A stretch of 20,071 bases of DNA from a virus. This document shows, one piece after another, positions 3,568-20,071 of the stretch (position 1 is its first letter; each line of letters opens with the position of its first letter). The translations under genes were made by a program, and so were the position numbers. Below the pieces are notes generated by a model that saw only the letters and a list, made by a program, of their open reading frames with translations, was not told the DNA's origin and searched no databases. Where the stretch lies: the IMG/VR virus record IMGVR_UViG_3300043446_001848, positions 1 through 20,071 of that record, one strand, 5' to 3'.

Positions 3568-5607
3568 TTATATCCATGAAGGTCGCCATTGACGTGGCGG
3601 GCGTTTCACGGTGACGAGGTTTGGTGCGTGGAGGCAGGCGAACCAGAGTGCCATGGCTAGGTCAGTTCCGTTCTTTTTGTCGCGGGTCCATTTGCAGAGT
3701 TCGTCGACGAGGGCGAGTGTTTTCCAGTTGCCTCTCATGGATGGGAGTCGGAGTGCAGAGGAGCGTACGAGTGGTGGGAGGATGGCTTCGATTCCTAGGT
3801 TTTGGTCGAGTTTGTTGCGGCTGGTGGTGTGGGGGAGGATGTTGAGGGACCACATTGTTTCCCATTTGCGGACGAAGTCGTGTTGGAGGAGGAAGCGTTG
3901 GGCGGCGTTGATTTCGACGATGATGTGGGTGACGGGGTGGTTGAGGTCGTATGCGCGGTTGCACCATTCTTCGAGGATTCCTGTGTATTCCTGGGTGGTG
4001 GTGTTGTAGCCGAGGAGGTTTTCGGCGGTGAGTTTGGTGCGCTGAACATCTATAACGTGATACAGATTATGTTCTGGCTGGTACAGCATCCAGATAAGTC
4101 CCCAGAATTGGGTGGGGGAGGGGTCGATTGCGATGATGGAGATGACTGGGGGCTGAAGGTTTGGGGGTATGTATTCGGGTTGGCGTTCCTGGTCGATGCA
4201 CCCGTGATACAAGACACCGTCTTTTCCTATTCCGCCTGTTATCCAGGTGCGGTCTATGAGGTATGACTCGTCGGCGAGGTCTTCTTGTTGGTAGATGACG
4301 CGGAAGCGTTCATTGTTTGAATGTCGAAGGTACGACAAATCTTTCCACGAAAGCCTTTTGGGGTCAAGTAGTGGACCATTTGGGTAAGGAGGTGCATCAT
4401 GTCTCCGACTTTTAGGACCAGTATCCAACTCCTCGTAGTACGCCCGATAAACAATATGCTTATATTTTTGTTTCTTGGGGGGTTCAGGCTTGTCCTGCAT
4501 CGTGGTAGCCGTGACATCTTCGCCATCGTAGTCGTCTTCGTCGAACTCGTAGGTGACTTTTGATAGAACATGGGCGTAGAGGTCGCCTGCTCCTAGTCTT
4601 TGTCCTACGACTGCAAGTACGCCGCCTGGGTCGACGCGGGCTTCTGCCATTGAGTCCCATCTTTCGAGCAGTTTGTCACGGGCTGTGGATTCTCGTGCGT
4701 TTTCGGTGGAGGCAACGTCGTCAAACAAGCATAAATCGGCGCGATGTCCGATGAATTCGGCGTCAATACCGTACGCACGGACGGTTGGTTCCTTGTTGTC
4801 TAGCCCATTTCCGTCTAATTGTTCAACGATGAACTCCTCTGCACGCCACAAAGCACCTTTGTCGGAAGGTTTGAAGCGCCCGTAGTCAATGGAGAGGCAT
4901 CCCATTGCGTCTTTTGCGAGTCCTTTGCGGGCGAGTTCGGGGTCTGCGAGCATCGGGTTCGGGCGTTCTAGGGTTTCGCGGATTCGGCGGCTGTACATTT
5001 TGGCGAGGTTCTGGTTGGCGGAACCGATGAGTACGCGGATGGCGCGGTTGCGTACGATTGCCCAGACAGCAACATCATGGAATAGGGTAGATTTTCCTGC
5101 TCCTGGTGGGACGTTGAGGCAGACGAATTCTTTTTCTTCGGATTCCAACAGTTTTACAATTTCGAGGGCGGCTTCTACCTGCCACGGGGATTCCACACGC
5201 CCCAGGTAATACTCTCTAAAAAATTGGAAGTCTTCGAGTCCGCGTTTGGCTTCTTCGGTGAGACGGTCTAACGGGATGGCTGGGGGGAGGTCGCCTGCTT
5301 CTTGTAAATCCATGGCGGCTTCCCACTGACGCCCACCTTTTCTGCGTTCGAATTTGTCGAGTTCGTCTTGGGCTAGGTCTGCTTGGGCTTTGATGGCTTT
5401 CGAACGTTTGACCCAGTTATAGCCTGTGTTTTGGTGGACTCCTGCGATGCGGCAGGCGTCTTTGACGGTGTGCCCAGCGTGGATGGCTTGCCAGAATTTG
5501 GCTTTGTCGTTTGCTGGTATTTTGCGAATCCCTTGCATGAGCGAAAATAAGCGTACACGAATGGTTGCATCATGTTGTGTGTGCTGTATGCTGTCGGTCA
5601 ACTTCAT
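3568..5607 (-). CDS. terL: Terminase large subunit with N-terminal helix-turn-helix
   Basis: This 679-aa protein is the ATP-driven packaging motor and headful/cos nuclease. Walker A is VPPGAGKST at residues 166-174 and Walker B with the catalytic acidic pair is LCLFDD at 292-297. The C-terminal RNase H-like nuclease shows its acidic residues at D494 (AIDPSP), E565 (IVEIN) and D649 (TDLAMALWFA). Residues about 30-75 form a helix-turn-helix (ACRIAGVHQNTGYNWVKRSK) like those of small terminases and IS transposases, so DNA recognition may be fused to the motor. The ATG at 5607 lies eight bases after the stop of the 61-aa gene. A second in-frame ATG at residue 24 has no Shine-Dalgarno sequence. 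I see no separate TerS gene in this window. Confidence 0.95.
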   Translation of the reverse strand: MKLTDSIQHTQHDATIRVRLFSLMQGIRKIPANDKAKFWQAIHAGHTVKDACRIAGVHQNTGYNWVKRSKAIKAQADLAQDELDKFERRKGGRQWEAAMDLQEAGDLPPAIPLDRLTEEAKRGLEDFQFFREYYLGRVESPWQVEAALEIVKLLESEEKEFVCLNVPPGAGKSTLFHDVAVWAIVRNRAIRVLIGSANQNLAKMYSRRIRETLERPNPMLADPELARKGLAKDAMGCLSIDYGRFKPSDKGALWRAEEFIVEQLDGNGLDNKEPTVRAYGIDAEFIGHRADLCLFDDVASTENARESTARDKLLERWDSMAEARVDPGGVLAVVGQRLGAGDLYAHVLSKVTYEFDEDDYDGEDVTATTMQDKPEPPKKQKYKHIVYRAYYEELDTGPKSRRHDAPPYPNGPLLDPKRLSWKDLSYLRHSNNERFRVIYQQEDLADESYLIDRTWITGGIGKDGVLYHGCIDQERQPEYIPPNLQPPVISIIAIDPSPTQFWGLIWMLYQPEHNLYHVIDVQRTKLTAENLLGYNTTTQEYTGILEEWCNRAYDLNHPVTHIIVEINAAQRFLLQHDFVRKWETMWSLNILPHTTSRNKLDQNLGIEAILPPLVRSSALRLPSMRGNWKTLALVDELCKWTRDKKNGTDLAMALWFACLHAPNLVTVKRPPRQWRPSWI

Positions 5608-10866: not shown

Positions 10867-11167
10867 CGCTTTCTATACCCTTGTTGCGGAGCCTTTGGAT
10901 GGCGAGACGTTCGCGGGGTGTGCGTCCGCCGAACACACCGAACCGCACAATCTCGTGCACCTCTGCATCCATTGCCAGTTCGAAACATTCGTTGCGAGAC
11001 TTGCAGAAAGCGCAGATTCGTTTGGCTTCTTTGTATGGGTCTGTGTCTTGGTAGCCACGAGCAATCTCAGGGAAGAATATCTTTCCGTCCATCCCTTTGC
11101 AGGGGGCGGTGTCCCACCAGCCGAGTTTGCTCATCTCTAAATCTTTCACGATGGCATGTGCGCCCAT
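10862..11167 (-). CDS. whiB: WhiB-family iron-sulfur transcriptional regulator
   Basis: This 101-aa protein has the four cluster-binding cysteines C23, C52, C55 and C61 in the WhiB order (C-x2-C-x5-C for the last three), then the turn GVFGG (77-81), where cellular proteins usually have GVWGG, and a basic C-terminal segment (TPRERLAIQRLRNKG) for DNA binding. WhiB proteins hold a 4Fe-4S cluster and act with the main sigma factor; phage copies can repress host whiB genes, as in mycobacteriophage TM4. ATG at 11167 has AAGGAAGGGA upstream. It is the last gene of the leftward operon. This is the best single piece of evidence for an actinobacterial host. Confidence 0.93.
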   Translation of the reverse strand: MGAHAIVKDLEMSKLGWWDTAPCKGMDGKIFFPEIARGYQDTDPYKEAKRICAFCKSRNECFELAMDAEVHEIVRFGVFGGRTPRERLAIQRLRNKGIESE

Positions 11168-13710: not shown

Positions 13711-13876
13711 GAGTGATTGCCTTCTGTAGCAAAAACCTGATGTATGCGGACCTGCCCACACCGTGCTCCCGTGCCAGCCGTTCGAGGGCTTCGGCTTGGG
13801 TCGTGGTAATGCGGAAGGCAATCATCTTGGTCGAGCGGTCTTTGCCTGCTGGGTCAACAGTTCTTTTAGCAGCCAT
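13703..13876 (-). CDS. Ribbon-helix-helix DNA-binding protein, 57 aa
   Basis: ATG at 13876 overlaps the stop of the annealing-protein gene by one base (TGATG). The product has a basic start MAAKRTVDPAGKDRSTK, a strand MIAFRITTTQ, then helices AEALERLAREHG and RSAYIRFLLQKAITRG, the MetJ/Arc/CopG layout. These dimers bind operators, often of their own operon. The palindromes at 15942-15960 and the TGTCNTAAGACA family are candidate targets. Too short for many gene finders, but its overlaps make it credible. Confidence 0.78.
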   Translation of the reverse strand: MAAKRTVDPAGKDRSTKMIAFRITTTQAEALERLAREHGVGRSAYIRFLLQKAITRG

Positions 13877-14502
13877 CACTTACCATCCTTGAATGCCTTG
13901 AGGTCATTGAATGACGCACGAAGTTTCGGCAGGTCGTTGACTGTTGCCTTGTCGAGGTCGATGCCTGCGTTGGTTGCGACAGTCTTGGGGTTGAGTCCTG
14001 ACTTGGCGCAAGCCCCACAGAACTGGTCAATTTGTTCTGCGCTCAATGGTTCGTCGGCACTTGGTGCGGGTGCTGTCTTAGGTACGGAAGTCTTGGTCGG
14101 GGTGTCTTGGGTTTCCCATTCCTGTTTTGTCCACAGGGACAGGCAGATACCAAACCGCATCGCGGCGTTGCGGAGGAAGTCTCCGACAAGTTCTTTGTCG
14201 AGGTCAGCCTTGTCGTGCTTGACTGTGCCGACTCCGAGCATCTGCTTGTTGTGAACGTAGAGGTGCCCCCACATGACTGCCATACCGTTGACGACGTGGA
14301 TTGCTGGGCGTCCGTTGTCCCAGCCTGCTGGTTCCCACCACCACATTGGGTCTACCTCGATGAGGATTTTGGTGATGTCTGCGTGTCCGACGAAGTCGAG
14401 TTGGATTCCTCCGCGTGGGAGTTTGCCGACGATGGACCTATCTGGTACACCGTACTTGTCGAGGATGGTGCGTAGGGCTATTGCGTTTTCTTTTTCTTCC
14501 AT
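13876..14502 (-). CDS. Single-strand annealing protein (Rad52/Erf-like)
   Basis: The 208-aa protein starts MEEKENAIALRTILDKYGV at ATG 14502, which overlaps the exonuclease stop (TAATG), with GGGGAGAAG upstream. It contains LDFVGHADITKILIEVDPMW (about 35-54), GWDNGRPAIHVV and, near 105-125, VGDFLRNAAMRFGICLSLW, the pattern of Rad52/Erf-type annealing proteins. A linker rich in Pro, Thr and Ala (132-150) leads to a helical C-terminal domain. Such proteins anneal complementary strands exposed by the exonuclease; here it sits just after a YqaJ exonuclease as in lambda-Red-like pairs. Which annealing family it belongs to is uncertain. Confidence 0.8.
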   Translation of the reverse strand: MEEKENAIALRTILDKYGVPDRSIVGKLPRGGIQLDFVGHADITKILIEVDPMWWWEPAGWDNGRPAIHVVNGMAVMWGHLYVHNKQMLGVGTVKHDKADLDKELVGDFLRNAAMRFGICLSLWTKQEWETQDTPTKTSVPKTAPAPSADEPLSAEQIDQFCGACAKSGLNPKTVATNAGIDLDKATVNDLPKLRASFNDLKAFKDGK

Positions 14503-15455
14503 TACTTCTCCCCTTTCAGGAGCAACGTGCGTGTGGTGGTTGGCTTGCTGTACTTGGCGACGATGGCTGGCTCCATCGCCTTGATTGCTTTGATGTCGAG
14601 GGACTGCCATGTTCGTCCCTTCCATGTTGCGATGATTGTCCCGTTGACGCTGGCGTATTCGTTTGCGCCGATGAGTTCGCAGAGTTCTGCTTTCAAGCGG
14701 TCTTCCAGTTCGGACAGTCCTTTGAGTTCCCGCTTCACATGCTTGAGTTGGTCAACGATGTCCTCCGCAGTTTCAGGAAGTTCAACCGTGGTGGGTTCGG
14801 GTGCGGAGTAGCGGGTGCTGATGGTTTCGTATGACCACTTGACTCCTGGTGGGGTCATGCCGAGGTCGATTGCGGTTAGCCACTTGGACACAGCCTCGAC
14901 GTGTTCTGCTTTTTCGTCAGCGGTGATGTCTTGTCTTACGACATGGAACGCCATGGTTGAGTCGAAGATGCCCCATGTGATGTGGTCTACGTCGGCGCAG
15001 ATGGCTTGCTGGATTCCTTGGATTCGCCAGTAGTCGAACAGTTCCCCGTCGAATGGCTGGGACAGCGTCTTGATTTCTAGGACATAACGAGTCCCGTTAT
15101 CCTCGTAGAACCCGTCGAGTGTGGCAATCATGCGGGCGGAACCATCATCGGATTCTGCTACGAACATTTCCTCTGGGGTTTCGTAGTTGATTCCTGTGCG
15201 GTCGATAGCCCACTTGATGCACAGTGGTTCGAGGTCGTTGCCTCGTGTCATTGCCCATGTTGGGGCGATTGGTGCGGGGGGTATGTCACCTAACAGTTCT
15301 GCGGCGTATTGGTCGGTGGGTACGAATCGGTGTAGCCCGTAGATTGCGGCGACTGCGGAGGCAGAGACGCGCTTGCGTTTCTGTTCGTCCCAGAATCGGA
15401 CGGCTAACCAATCTGATTCGCCATGGGTTGGTTTGGATATGCGGTAACGCTTCAT
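14502..15455 (-). CDS. YqaJ-like viral exonuclease
   Basis: This 317-aa protein has the YqaJ/lambda-exonuclease order: RVSASAVAAIYG near residues 29-40, E76 in RGNDLEP, D114 in TLDGFY, E127-x-K129 in LEIKT, and Q147/Q150 in RIQGIQQA. These are PD-(D/E)XK active-site residues of enzymes that chew one DNA strand 5'-3' for recombination. The C-terminal third (about 225-317) adds a coiled coil (LKHVKRELKGLSELEDRL) typical of phage YqaJ proteins. ATG at 15455 has GAAGGGAGAA upstream. It works with the annealing protein next door. Confidence 0.9.
   Translation of the reverse strand: MKRYRISKPTHGESDWLAVRFWDEQKRKRVSASAVAAIYGLHRFVPTDQYAAELLGDIPPAPIAPTWAMTRGNDLEPLCIKWAIDRTGINYETPEEMFVAESDDGSARMIATLDGFYEDNGTRYVLEIKTLSQPFDGELFDYWRIQGIQQAICADVDHITWGIFDSTMAFHVVRQDITADEKAEHVEAVSKWLTAIDLGMTPPGVKWSYETISTRYSAPEPTTVELPETAEDIVDQLKHVKRELKGLSELEDRLKAELCELIGANEYASVNGTIIATWKGRTWQSLDIKAIKAMEPAIVAKYSKPTTTRTLLLKGEK
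14932..14943 (-). promoter_or_regulatory. TGTCNTAAGACA motif copy within the exonuclease gene
   Basis: On the minus strand this is TGTCGTAAGACA, identical to the copy at 7202-7213. It lies within coding sequence, outside the early block, so it may be chance or a roadblock-type site. Confidence 0.3.
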
Positions 15456-15941: not shown

Positions 15942-15985
15942 GACTGCGACGATAGCAGTCTAGGAAAACGCTTTACGATTCGTCA
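15942..15985 (-). promoter_or_regulatory. Leftward promoter with overlapping inverted repeat
   Basis: On the minus strand TAGACT (15957-15962) fits a -10 (TAnnnT), with a weak -35, TGACGA at 17 bp (15980-15985) or CTGACG at 18 bp. The perfect inverted repeat GACTGC-N7-GCAGTC (15942-15960) overlaps the -10 and start site, as an operator would. It lies just ahead of the first gene of the DNA-metabolism operon. Confidence 0.45.
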
Positions 15986-16198
15986 GCGATGACTTTCGAT
16001 ATGTCTATCCAACTTGGAATCGACACGGTCAATCTTGTCTTCGACGTTGCCCTGCTTCTTGTACACCATCTTCAACATGCCCATCACGACCTCATGGTCT
16101 GACGCATTATCCTTCTTGAATTTTTGGATGACGGTGACTAGGACAGAAAAAGCACCAGCGACAACAGCACTAAGAAAGACAGCCCAGCCCGAATCCAC
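15983..16198 (-). CDS. Small membrane protein, holin-like, 71 aa
   Basis: The start is GTG at 16198, six bases after GGGAG. The product has one membrane segment (about 5-25, WAVFLSAVVAGAFSVLVTVI) followed by a charged, helical tail (VIQKFKKDNASDHEVVMGML then a coiled-coil-like DKIDRVDSKLDRHI). One-span proteins with a charged helical tail next to endolysins can be holins, antiholins or spanin-like partners. It follows the endolysin with a 3-base overlap region (TGATGTG). A competing ATG in another frame overlaps the same site. Confidence 0.65.
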   Translation of the reverse strand: MDSGWAVFLSAVVAGAFSVLVTVIQKFKKDNASDHEVVMGMLKMVYKKQGNVEDKIDRVDSKLDRHIESHR

Positions 16199-16199
16199 A

Positions 16200-16760
16200 T
16201 CAGGCTCCCTTCGATTCCTTCCACGCCTTCACACGCTCAGGCACATCATCGCCTGCAACGTAACGTAGATGCCACGGTTCTGACGGGAGAACTTCCCACG
16301 AGAACCCAAACGAGACAGCGTTCTTAGCAAGCCATTCGAGTCGTGCACCCGATGCGTCGGCAATATCTACAGCCACCCCGTAATTATGCTGACTAGAACC
16401 AGGCACCGCCATTGGCGCTTGACCTTTCTTCAAGTACCAAGCCTTCCCCTTGTAGATGCGTGGCTTCTGCTTCATCAAGGCTGGCTTCGGGTTGTCGGTA
16501 TATCGCTGGAAGAATCCGTACTCCTGAACCGCAAGTGAGCGATATGTATCCGATGGGCTAGTCGGAGAGAGGTCAATTCCTTCTGCGTTAGCGGCGGCGT
16601 CCATCGCCTCATAAGCGTCAGCCGCGCAATGATGCAACTGACCCTTGCCTTCAATCTTGCGAAGAAGACTTGGGTCGAGTTCACCAGGCTCCACGTCCTT
16701 GAGGTGGGAGCACAACTTCACCTTGATGATGGGAAGTTTGGCGATGTCCACCTTCGCCAT
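16200..16760 (-). CDS. Endolysin, M15 family peptidase (VanY/D-Ala-D-Ala carboxypeptidase-like)
   Basis: This 186-aa protein carries the M15 zinc ligands H125 and D132 in GSSQHNYGVAVDIAD, and H164 with catalytic E161 in SEPWHLRYV; TYRSLAVQ (72-79) matches the usual substrate-binding RS segment. Such enzymes cut peptide bonds in peptidoglycan stems or cross-links. There is no signal peptide, so it needs a holin to reach the wall. Residues 1-45 are basic and may be a small binding region. Its ATG overlaps the holin stop (TAATG). It sits among three small membrane proteins. Confidence 0.9.
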   Translation of the reverse strand: MAKVDIAKLPIIKVKLCSHLKDVEPGELDPSLLRKIEGKGQLHHCAADAYEAMDAAANAEGIDLSPTSPSDTYRSLAVQEYGFFQRYTDNPKPALMKQKPRIYKGKAWYLKKGQAPMAVPGSSQHNYGVAVDIADASGARLEWLAKNAVSFGFSWEVLPSEPWHLRYVAGDDVPERVKAWKESKGA

Positions 16761-17014
16761 TATGCGGTCGCCTCATCCTTCTTCTTTGGCGCGCCAGCAC
16801 CAGAGAACGCTGCTTCGATTTCTTCCTTGGTGAGGGAGCCGTCGACGCTGAAGCGGAGCAACTTCTCGATGACCTGGGCGCATGCCATGACGCCTGCGAG
16901 GGCGGCTGACTTCCAGAGTTCGACTCCGATGATGGCACCTCCTGCGACTGCGGCGAGAGCCGACGAGCCGAACAGGGCGAAGATGCGGAAGATGATGTTC
17001 TTCAACTTTTCCAT
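16760..17014 (-). CDS. Holin, 84 aa
   Basis: The product starts MEKLKNIIFRIFALFGSSAL and has two hydrophobic segments (about 8-31 and 34-52, separated by a short VELWKS turn), then a charged tail rich in Lys, Ala and Glu (LTKEEIEAAFSGAGAPKKKDE). This two-span layout resembles r1t-type actinophage holins. It forms lesions in the membrane that release the endolysin encoded next. ATG at 17014 overlaps the previous stop (TAATG). Confidence 0.8.
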   Translation of the reverse strand: MEKLKNIIFRIFALFGSSALAAVAGGAIIGVELWKSAALAGVMACAQVIEKLLRFSVDGSLTKEEIEAAFSGAGAPKKKDEATA

Positions 17015-17181
17015 TAGTCAGAATCTTTCTGTGCAAGAGTGATGATTGAATGTACCAGAATAGTGCATCCTGTAATCAGGGTTGCCTGTCTTAGGGTAGG
17101 ACCCGACAGGGTGATGAGGACCATGCCTGTACCTGCCCAGGTCCATGCGTTATCGACGAGGTAGGTAAGTACTTTCTTCAT
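17014..17181 (-). CDS. Small two-span membrane protein, 55 aa
   Basis: ATG at 17181 overlaps the previous stop (TGATG), and its stop overlaps the holin start. The product starts MKKVLTYLVDNAWTWAGTGM, with hydrophobic runs at about 14-26 and 33-49 (TLITGCTILVHSIITLA) and a short charged end QKDSD. It may be a second holin, an antiholin or a holin partner. The two overlaps make the gene credible despite its size. Confidence 0.7.
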   Translation of the reverse strand: MKKVLTYLVDNAWTWAGTGMVLITLSGPTLRQATLITGCTILVHSIITLAQKDSD

Positions 17182-18536
17182 CAGCGTCGTATTCTAGTTG
17201 GTGGGGGAAGCATGGTGAGGACCGCCCCGATAGCCACCAGAGTGCGACGGGTGCCGACTGGGACATTGGAGCCGACAGGAACATAGGTGTCTAGCCCCGT
17301 CTTGAAGATGTCTACGTTCTTTTCGAATGCGGCACGGACTTCGGTGGGTGCGCTCTGGACGGCTTCAATCAGGGCGGCGACTTGAGTGTCGTCAAGTTCG
17401 GTGACGTCGAGTGCTTGGAAGATTTCCTCCGCTTGAGCGGTGCTAACTACAGCAAGCACTTGTGCGTTTGTGGCTAGGTAGGCGGCTTGGTCGGGGCTAG
17501 GTGGGGTCTGGAGAATGGCGTCGACCGCTTTAGCCACCTGTTCAGGGGACGCGACAGGAGCCTCTAGGACGTTTTGTGGGGTGGTTGGTACGGTTTCGGG
17601 GGGTACGCTTGCGAGAGGGGCTGTGGACGCGACTGGTGCCATTGTGGTGGCAGGCGCTAGGGTGGTGGCAGGAGGCTTAGATGTTTGGGTTGTTGGAGTT
17701 TCTGGCACTGTTGTTGGCAGTGGTTGTAATACCGTTGTGGATACTTCTGGCACCGTCGTGGGCGGTTCAGTCGTGGTTGATGTTGGTGGAGGTACCCATG
17801 CTTGTGTGGTTGACGTGGCAGGTAGCGTCGTATCAACGCTAGTTGTGGTGGAAGGAGGAACCGATGAAGTGGTTGACGTTGATATTTCTGTTGTCGATGT
17901 ACTGGGCGCTTCGGTCGTCGAGGTTGTAGTTTCCTGAACTGTCGTAGAAGTGGTGGTCATGGCAGGGACAGTCGTTTCGAGGACAGTAGTAGTAGTGGTC
18001 GTCGTCGGTGGAGTGGATGTTGTTGTATATGCCCATTCGGGGACTATCTCCCAACCGATGTCGTCGATGTTCCATGCGAGCATATAGCACGTTCCGCCCC
18101 ACCATTCAAAGAACCAGCCATCAAGAGCATTGGGTCCTGGCTCCAAATCAAGGGTGACTTGTCTACTCCATGAACAGCCTTTGAGATTCCATGTCCCAAA
18201 CTCTTGACCAGCAATGTTGACGGTTCCGCCATCATCTGCGGCAACCATGAACTTGATGGTGTCGTGTTCAGGGATGTTGATGAACCCTGTGTAGTGAACC
18301 ATGAAGTAATCCCAGCCACAGTCTTGGAATGGTTCGCCGTTGAAGTTGCGGTTGATGTTGTTTTCGATTTCACTGCCGCAAGACAGGTATATATCATCGG
18401 ACCTTGTAGGTGGTAGGTCGTCGATGTAGTAGCCGACTGCGTTCAGTCCTGGCTGTGGTTCAGCGTTCGCCTGTTGTGGCAGTAATGCGATGAAGGCGAC
18501 GGGAAGGAAAACTAGCCAGCGGCTACTTCGACCCAC
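17181..18536 (-). CDS. Secreted PA14-like protein with Thr/Ser/Pro mucin-like region
   Basis: A 451-aa protein starts at GTG 18536 (AGGA nine bases upstream), overlapping the upstream gene by 25 bases. It has a signal peptide (residues 1-25, cleavage after ANA), a PA14-like beta domain (about 30-165, with VGYYIDDLPP, FINIPEHDTIKFMVAADDGG and LDGWFFEWWGG) and a long Thr/Ser/Pro tract (170-315). A helical domain follows (about 320-415), then a short hydrophobic stretch and a basic end (RIRR). PA14 domains often bind sugars. It may be a surface adhesin, a tail-tip glycan binder, or a protein displayed on the infected cell. The tract gives many repeated TTT/ACA-type codons. Function is inferred. 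Confidence 0.8.
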   Translation of the reverse strand: MGRSSRWLVFLPVAFIALLPQQANAEPQPGLNAVGYYIDDLPPTRSDDIYLSCGSEIENNINRNFNGEPFQDCGWDYFMVHYTGFINIPEHDTIKFMVAADDGGTVNIAGQEFGTWNLKGCSWSRQVTLDLEPGPNALDGWFFEWWGGTCYMLAWNIDDIGWEIVPEWAYTTTSTPPTTTTTTTVLETTVPAMTTTSTTVQETTTSTTEAPSTSTTEISTSTTSSVPPSTTTSVDTTLPATSTTQAWVPPPTSTTTEPPTTVPEVSTTVLQPLPTTVPETPTTQTSKPPATTLAPATTMAPVASTAPLASVPPETVPTTPQNVLEAPVASPEQVAKAVDAILQTPPSPDQAAYLATNAQVLAVVSTAQAEEIFQALDVTELDDTQVAALIEAVQSAPTEVRAAFEKNVDIFKTGLDTYVPVGSNVPVGTRRTLVAIGAVLTMLPPPTRIRR

Positions 18537-18858: not shown

Positions 18859-19701
18859 TTAGACGGTAATCGTACCAGTTCCAGCAGTAAACGAGTAAAT
18901 CTTGTATCCGCCCGTAACGTTCTTGGTATAGGTGAGTCCAGCACCGATAGTGGTGAGGTCTTCCTGGCTGTCTGGGTAGCGAAGAATAACGATGCCCGAA
19001 CCACCCGAACCACCAGTATTGCCAGAAGAAGCGCCACCACCGCCGCCACCCGTGTTTGCTGTTCCAGCGGTTCCACTTGTTCCGTTACCACCTGCGCCAC
19101 CGCCACCGTTACCGCCGCTACCAGATGTGGTGCGACTTCCACCACCACCACCAGCACGATATGTAGCAGAACCAGTAATCGAAGAACTAACACCGACACC
19201 ACCATTTGGTTGACCGCCAGTGCCGCCCGCACCACCACCTCCGCCAGTGCCTTCGCCAGCGCTACCCCACGCATTAGCACCCGCGTAACCCTGATTCGCT
19301 GTTCCAGCCGCACCACTTCTAAACACCCCGTCACCACGACCTAAAGCACCACCACCCGAACCACCAACACCCGACGTTCCTGAACCGTTGTCACCAGGAC
19401 CGCCACCAGTTGATGTGATTGACGACAAAACACTGTCCGAACCCTTAGTGCTCGCACCACCACCCGCTCCAACAGTGACCGTGTAAGAAGACCCGACAGT
19501 GACACTCAGTTTTGATTCAGCGGACGCTCCACCACCAGATGATTCGCTAACTACAGATGAACGGTATCCACCAGCGCCCCCGCCACCACCATCATTCGCT
19601 CCAGCAGCGCCAGAGTATCCTCCGCCACCTCCAGCGACTACAACATATTCAAACTGTGTTGGGAAGTTGAGTGTCGCACCAACCGTAGCGAGAACCTGCA
19701 T
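18859..19701 (-). CDS. Glycine-rich tail fibre protein
   Basis: The 280-aa protein starts MQVLATVGATLNFPTQFEYV at ATG 19701, two bases after the upstream stop. Residues about 23-225 are more than one-third Gly, in blocks such as AGGGGGYSGAAGANDGGGGG and GGGGGASSG, and the end has GSGIVILRYP and YKIYSFTAGTGTITV, the usual closing strands of phage glycine-rich fibre domains. These form trimeric or polyglycine-II type fibre tips for receptor binding. The long opposite-strand frame full of Pro is a shadow. Confidence 0.88.
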   Translation of the reverse strand: MQVLATVGATLNFPTQFEYVVVAGGGGGYSGAAGANDGGGGGAGGYRSSVVSESSGGGASAESKLSVTVGSSYTVTVGAGGGASTKGSDSVLSSITSTGGGPGDNGSGTSGVGGSGGGALGRGDGVFRSGAAGTANQGYAGANAWGSAGEGTGGGGGAGGTGGQPNGGVGVSSSITGSATYRAGGGGGSRTTSGSGGNGGGGAGGNGTSGTAGTANTGGGGGGASSGNTGGSGGSGIVILRYPDSQEDLTTIGAGLTYTKNVTGGYKIYSFTAGTGTITV

Positions 19702-19703
19702 GG

Positions 19704-20071
19704 CTACGCCGCCAAATTGCCAACAGCCACCCAAGTGTCGGTGTCAATCTTCACCAACGTAGCCACCGCATACTGAGCGTTCGTCTTCAACTTCGACCCA
19801 GCAGAACGAATCGTCACACCAGAACCAGCCGTAATCGTGACCTGTCCCGCACCCAACTGCATAAGGTTCACTTGGTCGCCCGTTTCAAACGCGACAGACG
19901 AGTTCGGTGGAACCGTCAACGTGATAGCAGACGCGTTAGAGAGGGTGATGAACTTGTTTGCGTCAGTCAACACGAGCGTGTAGGTGGTTCCTGTCTGGGC
20001 GTTGAGGGTGAGGTTGTCAAGTTCCGCGGAACCGACAGCGCGGTCAGCGATTTTTGCCTGAGTTACAGAAT
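19704..20071 (-). CDS. Tail fibre/structural protein (C-terminal part, cut by window edge)
   Basis: The frame stays open to the right edge without a start in the window; 121 residues are visible. The part SVTQAKIADRAVGSAELDNL is a typical heptad-like linker of phage tail fibres, and the end is a beta-rich domain (KFITLSNASAITLTVPPNS, QVTITAGSGVTIRSAG) that closes with DTDTWVAVGNLAA. Such ends occur in trimeric fibre tips. It is the first of the leftward tail genes seen here, and its stop is two bases from the next start. Confidence 0.8.
   Translation of the reverse strand, partial: SVTQAKIADRAVGSAELDNLTLNAQTGTTYTLVLTDANKFITLSNASAITLTVPPNSSVAFETGDQVNLMQLGAGQVTITAGSGVTIRSAGSKLKTNAQYAVATLVKIDTDTWVAVGNLAA

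Follow-up and report, generated by a model that had tools for sequence, protein, structure and literature searches.

A putative surface-display protein with exchangeable heads and its small membrane partner, next to the lysis genes of probable aquatic actinophages

Related systems and the locus

The T5 protein Llp and streptococcal Ltp are small, phage-made lipoproteins of the envelope to which a role in adsorption or entry is attributed. The gene described here, which we call SURF, also appears to specify a phage-made, envelope-directed protein; it differs from both as a predicted wall-crossing lectin with a transmembrane anchor and a partner protein. It lies in a 20,071-base virus record, the whole of which is the window and which may be only a genome fragment.

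In fold and in the DcisD pair, the head of SURF resembles the PA14 adhesin lectins (MpPA14 of Marinomonas primoryensis, and the yeast Flo and Epa proteins), and it would likewise sit at the tip of a long stalk. However, SURF is carried by a phage, is putatively membrane-anchored at its C-terminus and is paired with a two-TM protein, and the ligand loop L11 of the MpPA14-type lectins differs from that of the SURF head. By both profile and structure, the head is closest to the PA14 sensor RsgI3 of Clostridium thermocellum; RsgI has a cytoplasmic anti-sigma part, whereas SURF has none.

The nearest precedent in concept is Cryophage, which encodes variable exported cargo, one with a PA14 domain, on a T9SS sorting domain, and superinfection exclusion has been suggested for this cargo (PMC7468147). 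As with SURF, these are phage-encoded, exported proteins with variable heads on a constant C-terminal part. However, Cryophage uses the Bacteroidetes T9SS sorting domain, whereas SURF has an unrelated C-terminal module (the C-module) and its own phage-encoded membrane partner (TM55), in probable actinophages. This was the only case found when we searched the literature for PA14 proteins that phages use for display or exclusion, and no paper describing the SURF-TM55 pair was found. The hypothetical protein WJZ48438.1 of phage DSL-LC01 (PMC10611076; OQ999401) has the same C-module (39% identity), Thr-rich stalks as in SURF, and TM55 fused at its end. It differs in length (944 aa), in its head domains, in the fused partner and in belonging to a 129-kb phage.

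The genes of the window that bear on SURF are the following.

18859..20069, minus strand: Gly-rich fibre-like protein, upstream of SURF; Pfam Gly_rich_2, 9.8e-13; cut by the contig end
18512..18856, minus strand: phrog_7759 protein, upstream neighbour of SURF, beside the tail fibre gene; PHROG match
17181..18536, minus strand: SURF, predicted exported surface protein, 451 aa, GTG start; 18 close relatives, C-module in at least 161 loci
17014..17181, minus strand: TM55, 55-aa partner with two TM segments; phrog_29041; starts on the SURF stop codon
16760..17014, minus strand: H84, 84-aa holin-like membrane protein; phrog_26427
16200..16760, minus strand: VanY/M15 endolysin; Pfam VanY, 3e-15
15983..16198, minus strand: H71, one-TM protein and second holin candidate; Pfam Phage_holin_3_7, 0.012 (below cut-off), and synteny
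10901..11119, minus strand: WhiB-type regulator, which points to an actinobacterial host; E 1.5e-15, above the curated threshold

A preliminary description had placed the gene between tail and lysis genes, and this position holds: the fibre-like and phrog_7759 genes lie upstream, and the holin/VanY-endolysin set (15983-17014) lies downstream of SURF and TM55. The start of SURF overlaps the end of the phrog_7759 gene by 25 nt, and the order SURF-TM55-H84-endolysin was retained in nearly all loci. We observed a dN/dS of about 0.1 for the SURF frame, which indicates purifying selection and hence a frame that did not arise by chance. The label 'nuclease' on phrog_26427, the family matched by H84 (window 16760-17014), looks like a misannotation.

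Architecture of the predicted protein

SURF could be divided into the following parts.

18462..18536, minus strand: predicted signal peptide, residues 1-25; RSSRW, hydrophobic core and ANA/EP cleavage (hydropathy, AxA motif)
18021..18461, minus strand: PA14 lectin-type head, residues 26-172 (profile, AlphaFold model, alignment), with a conserved Cys set
18231..18236, minus strand: Asp-Asp pair, residues 101-102, aligned with the Ca/sugar-binding DcisD pair of MpPA14
17532..18026, minus strand: Thr/Pro/Ser-rich stalk (composition)
17184..17489, minus strand: conserved C-module, made up of a helical bundle, a motif, a hydrophobic segment and an Arg tail (family alignment, structure model)
17208..17243, minus strand: putative C-terminal membrane segment TLVAIGAVLTML, then PPPTRIRR (hydropathy, charge; terminal helix in the model)

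The signal peptide has the hydrophobic core LVFLPVAFIALL, followed by ANA/EP. Of 122 distinct relatives, 105 passed the hydropathy/AxA test for a signal of this type, and almost all that failed were on 5'-truncated contigs; all complete proteins examined began with such a signal. We also considered a lipoprotein of the Llp/Ltp type, but the cleavage region (PQQANA/EP) has no Cys and hence no lipobox.

The head of SURF scored 19.6 bits against Pfam PA14 (PF07691), for which the curated cut-off is 24 bits; relatives that align with it exceeded the cut-off (L088, 28.9 bits; L082, 25.2; L101, 25.7; L167, 40). The family profile matched the PA14 domain of RsgI3 at 1.1e-17, and MhLap and MpPA14 weakly. 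An AlphaFold model of the head (pLDDT 88.8, pTM 0.86) matched RsgI3, MpPA14, Flo5, Epa1 and anthrax PA in the PDB, with Foldseek E values of 1.4e-8 to 6qe7 and 1.2e-6 to MpPA14. Phage proteins annotated as PA14 in a viral structure library were also matched. As judged from the model, the head has the PA14 beta-sandwich fold.

The Asp-Asp pair was kept in 24 of 24 PA14 heads, where it aligns in sequence with the DcisD pair, the Ca/sugar-binding motif defined in MpPA14 (PMC8092209). Four Cys were retained together in 23 of the 24. The L11 ligand loop of MpPA14 is partly kept in SURF (only the glycines and one acid); Gln156 and Asp159 of this loop are not kept in the alignment. Going by gene position and analogy, the head may bind sugar.

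The stalk spans about residues 169-330, with 59 T, 27 P and 18 S among 162 residues, and ranges from 136 to 342 aa across the family. Beyond it, the C-module is modelled as six helices and a terminal hydrophobic helix, and a search of the PDB with this fold gave no match better than E 0.5. Its motif is YVPxGSxxxVxxRR (in the window, YVPVGS at 17268-17285), with the core Y-[VIT]-P-x-[GD]-S-x3-V-x2-R-R across the family. Following the RR motif, 114 of 122 SURF proteins have a tail of 19-22 aa that is hydrophobic and then positively charged; the net charge of the tail is +2 to +4 in 119 of the 122, and its end is Arg-rich in nearly all. The hydrophobic segment is short (about 12-15 residues). This layout is probably that of a C-terminal membrane anchor. 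An adhesin anchored by sortase was rejected, as the LPxTG motif is absent from SURF.

The signal peptide, the PA14-like domain, the Thr/Ser/Pro region and the helical C-terminal domain had all been named in the preliminary description, and each was recovered here by the evidence given above. The likeness to a bacterial surface adhesin noted there is supported by the export signal, the conserved Cys set and the anchor-like C-terminus. That description did not include the anchor-like tail, the TM55 gene, its fusion to SURF or the exchange of heads. We consider the anatomy of a surface-display protein highly likely for SURF.

A further head type (beginning FSDPFDDLSQWTVVRNGGNGVIANGALRFSYGW), with no Pfam match, was present in L094, L095, L097 and L131. 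The C-module of these four is shortened, with most of the helical bundle missing.

Membrane partner, head exchange and host

The last base of the SURF stop codon, TGA, is the first base of the TM55 start codon, ATG (TGATG). When the search was started from SURF, TM55 followed in 141 of 142 loci. The TM55 family, catalogued as phrog_29041 with no function given, has members in at least 582 viral loci. Among those kept with enough upstream sequence, SURF was present upstream in 76 of 76; it ended at the TM55 start in 75, and in one an HNH gene was inserted between the two. SURF-TM55 is thus a widespread two-gene system of probable actinophages of common aquatic hosts, so far without a name or a function, since every TM55 locus checked had SURF. 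Free-standing genes for HNH homing-type endonucleases lay exactly between SURF and TM55 at L060:5317-5757, from L076:2269 on, and at L131:5562-6011 (the last with Pfam HNH_3, 4.8e-7).

In L088, L089, L091 and DSL-LC01, the last a freshwater phage, SURF and TM55 form a single protein that has TM55 at its end. In the fused protein the head would lie outside, and the TM55 part would enter the membrane from the inside by the positive-inside rule, in which case the C-module segment must cross the membrane. Contact between the C-module and TM55 is probable in the sense of a sequence-based prediction, as are export and anchoring. The SURF proteins of L088, L089 and L091 (on contigs of up to 210 kb) are longer, about 800 aa, and contain, besides PA14 and the fused TM55, helical repeats and a part resembling FN3.

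We also compared the divergence of neighbouring genes. Among five relatives of the window (L006, L011, L012, L014 and L015) the C-module and TM55 had changed together (57-69% identity), while H84 and VanY stayed 89-96% identical. In PA14-headed loci the distance correlation of C-module and TM55 was 0.86, the highest of the neighbouring pairs (0.65 for TM55/H84). However, over all 101 loci it was 0.71, no higher than the 0.73 of TM55/H84. Co-evolution of the C-module and TM55 is therefore suggestive but not proven, and we rejected it as a general feature, as it was tighter than TM55/H84 in PA14-headed loci only. A stricter H84 finder used on fewer loci gave a stronger general signal and was set aside.

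The close relatives and the wider C-module family came from a search of viral contigs. The head of SURF is swappable on a constant signal and anchor: heads of PA14, PPC-like and FN3-containing types occur on this signal and C-module, with at least three more without assignment. In L019 and L074 the heads are unrelated despite a similar signal, C-module and flanks (77% nucleotide identity over the upstream 300 nt, 85% over the C-module and 83% over the downstream kilobase). Between the window and L003, dS was 0.05 in the signal peptide and 0.88 in the head, as would be expected for exchange at the signal/head junction. With a dN/dS of about 0.1 the heads show purifying selection, and positive selection on them was rejected. 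The sequences themselves show the modular make-up, the pairing with TM55, the fusions, the exchange of heads and the host group. The window also has overlapping genes for a single-strand annealing protein (phrog_3290; 13876-14625) and a RecE/YqaJ-like exonuclease (14502-15455), a recombination pair that could drive head swapping.

WhiB genes occur only in actinobacteria and in phages of these hosts (PMC6802176, PMC10611076). We found one in the window, and 16 of 20 SURF carriers also have one. None of the 20 carriers (records that may be incomplete) had a tyrosine integrase, and a serine recombinase was found in DSL-LC01 only. The presence of WhiB and the scarcity of integrases indicate that the carriers are actinophages, most of them probably lytic.

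The proposal that SURF is a host gene picked up by transfer did not fare well. Two scans of 84,980 cellular genomes with strict patterns gave 108 and 98 pattern matches, all without a true relative, and the C-module is apparently phage-specific. Capture from a host was rejected on this basis; a host origin is not supported, in what was a weak test.

Proposed surface display and the alternatives

The export signal, the wall-length stalk, the anchor with its partner, the lectin head and the late-gene position all fit display on the surface of the infected cell before lysis. SURF would be exported by the Sec route late in infection, and the C-module with its short membrane segment would keep it in the cytoplasmic membrane, probably helped by contact with the two-helix TM55. 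The Thr/Pro/Ser stalk (136-342 residues, tens of nm if extended) would take the head through the cell wall, so that the interchangeable head, a PA14 lectin in the window, would be shown on the infected cell shortly before lysis. Its most likely ligands there would be glycans of the host envelope, whether of the infected cell or of neighbouring cells. Glycan receptors bound in this way would be masked and superinfecting phages excluded, and the masking would perhaps also spare progeny from loss on debris at lysis.

Display on the infected cell had been one of the earlier suggestions, and the export signal, the anchor-like end, the obligate membrane partner and a divergence like that of the lysis genes now speak for it. 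We tentatively favour SURF and TM55 as a phage-encoded surface-display system that masks receptors on the infected cell, with receptor masking and exclusion as a possible function; the timing and the masking are suggested by gene position and by analogy. Several findings count against it. Early expression would be more in keeping with exclusion than the late position beside the lysis genes, and the head dN/dS of about 0.1 carries no codon-level signature of an arms race. In addition, the C-terminal hydrophobic segment is short, Gln156 and Asp159 of the L11 loop are missing, and the tighter covariation of C-module and TM55 is confined to PA14-headed loci. If such surface remodelling were true, this would be a modular system of superinfection exclusion or receptor masking for Gram-positive hosts, with heads swapped onto a conserved anchor.

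Alternatively, the lectin may act as glue between infected cells, or the debris of lysis, and other cells or particles, and so improve the spread of progeny. MpPA14, Flo5 and Epa1, its PA14 relatives, are adhesion lectins, the stalk is mucin-like as in surface adhesins, and the heads are varied. However, host-binding debris could capture progeny as well; we regard this role as unlikely.

SURF might also sense an outside ligand (a superinfecting phage, a glycan or debris) and relay a signal to the neighbouring holin by way of its TM segment and TM55, which would delay or trigger lysis, much as in T4 RI lysis inhibition or with an RsgI-type PA14 sensor. The layout is receptor-like and has almost no cytoplasmic part, the TM partner is obligate, the conserved gene order leads on to H84 and the endolysin, and the nearest PA14 by profile is that of the sensor RsgI3. 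However, the likeness to RsgI3 is limited to the domain, and swappable heads of unlike folds would need to feed a single signalling path. With such tiny cytoplasmic portions of SURF and TM55, any output would have to act within the membrane. A lysis-timing sensor is, in our estimate, improbable, and the specific form of a transmembrane receptor with exchangeable heads for glycans, rival virions and debris, which sets the lysis time via the neighbouring holin, is slightly more so.

An accessory role in lysis seems similarly improbable. Here TM55 would be a holin or antiholin, and SURF would tie it to the wall and aid the endolysin or the breakup of the envelope. The operon position and the one-base overlap of TM55 and SURF agree with this, as does the tracking of VanY by the divergence of the head. 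However, SURF has no catalytic domain, a wall-crossing stalk with exchangeable lectin heads would be unnecessary, and H84 and H71 already supply holin candidates.

SURF adjoins tail fibre genes, and phage tail proteins also contain PA14 and FN3 domains, which could make it a virion component, such as a fibre tip acquired after export. We found that the divergence of the head tracked that of the endolysin (r 0.74-0.81) but not that of the gene beside the fibre (r 0.35), a pattern that counts against a fibre-linked role in the virion. The predicted cleavable export signal of all complete relatives, the anchor-like C-terminus and the membrane partner also argue against it. The window protein had no match in PHROG, and so none to tail or fibre families; with the export signal present, the reading as a tail protein was rejected, and a place in the virion is very unlikely. 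A recently captured host surface gene without a phage role is the least credible reading, as the bacterial-type architecture read from the sequence stands against a C-module known from at least 161 viral loci but from no cellular genome (in the two strict pattern scans), a fixed operon position and purifying selection.

Elsewhere in the window (3568-5607), the 679-aa large terminase has an N-terminal HTH stretch like that of small terminase subunits (phrog_4102, 1.6e-8), and it is possibly a TerS-TerL fusion.
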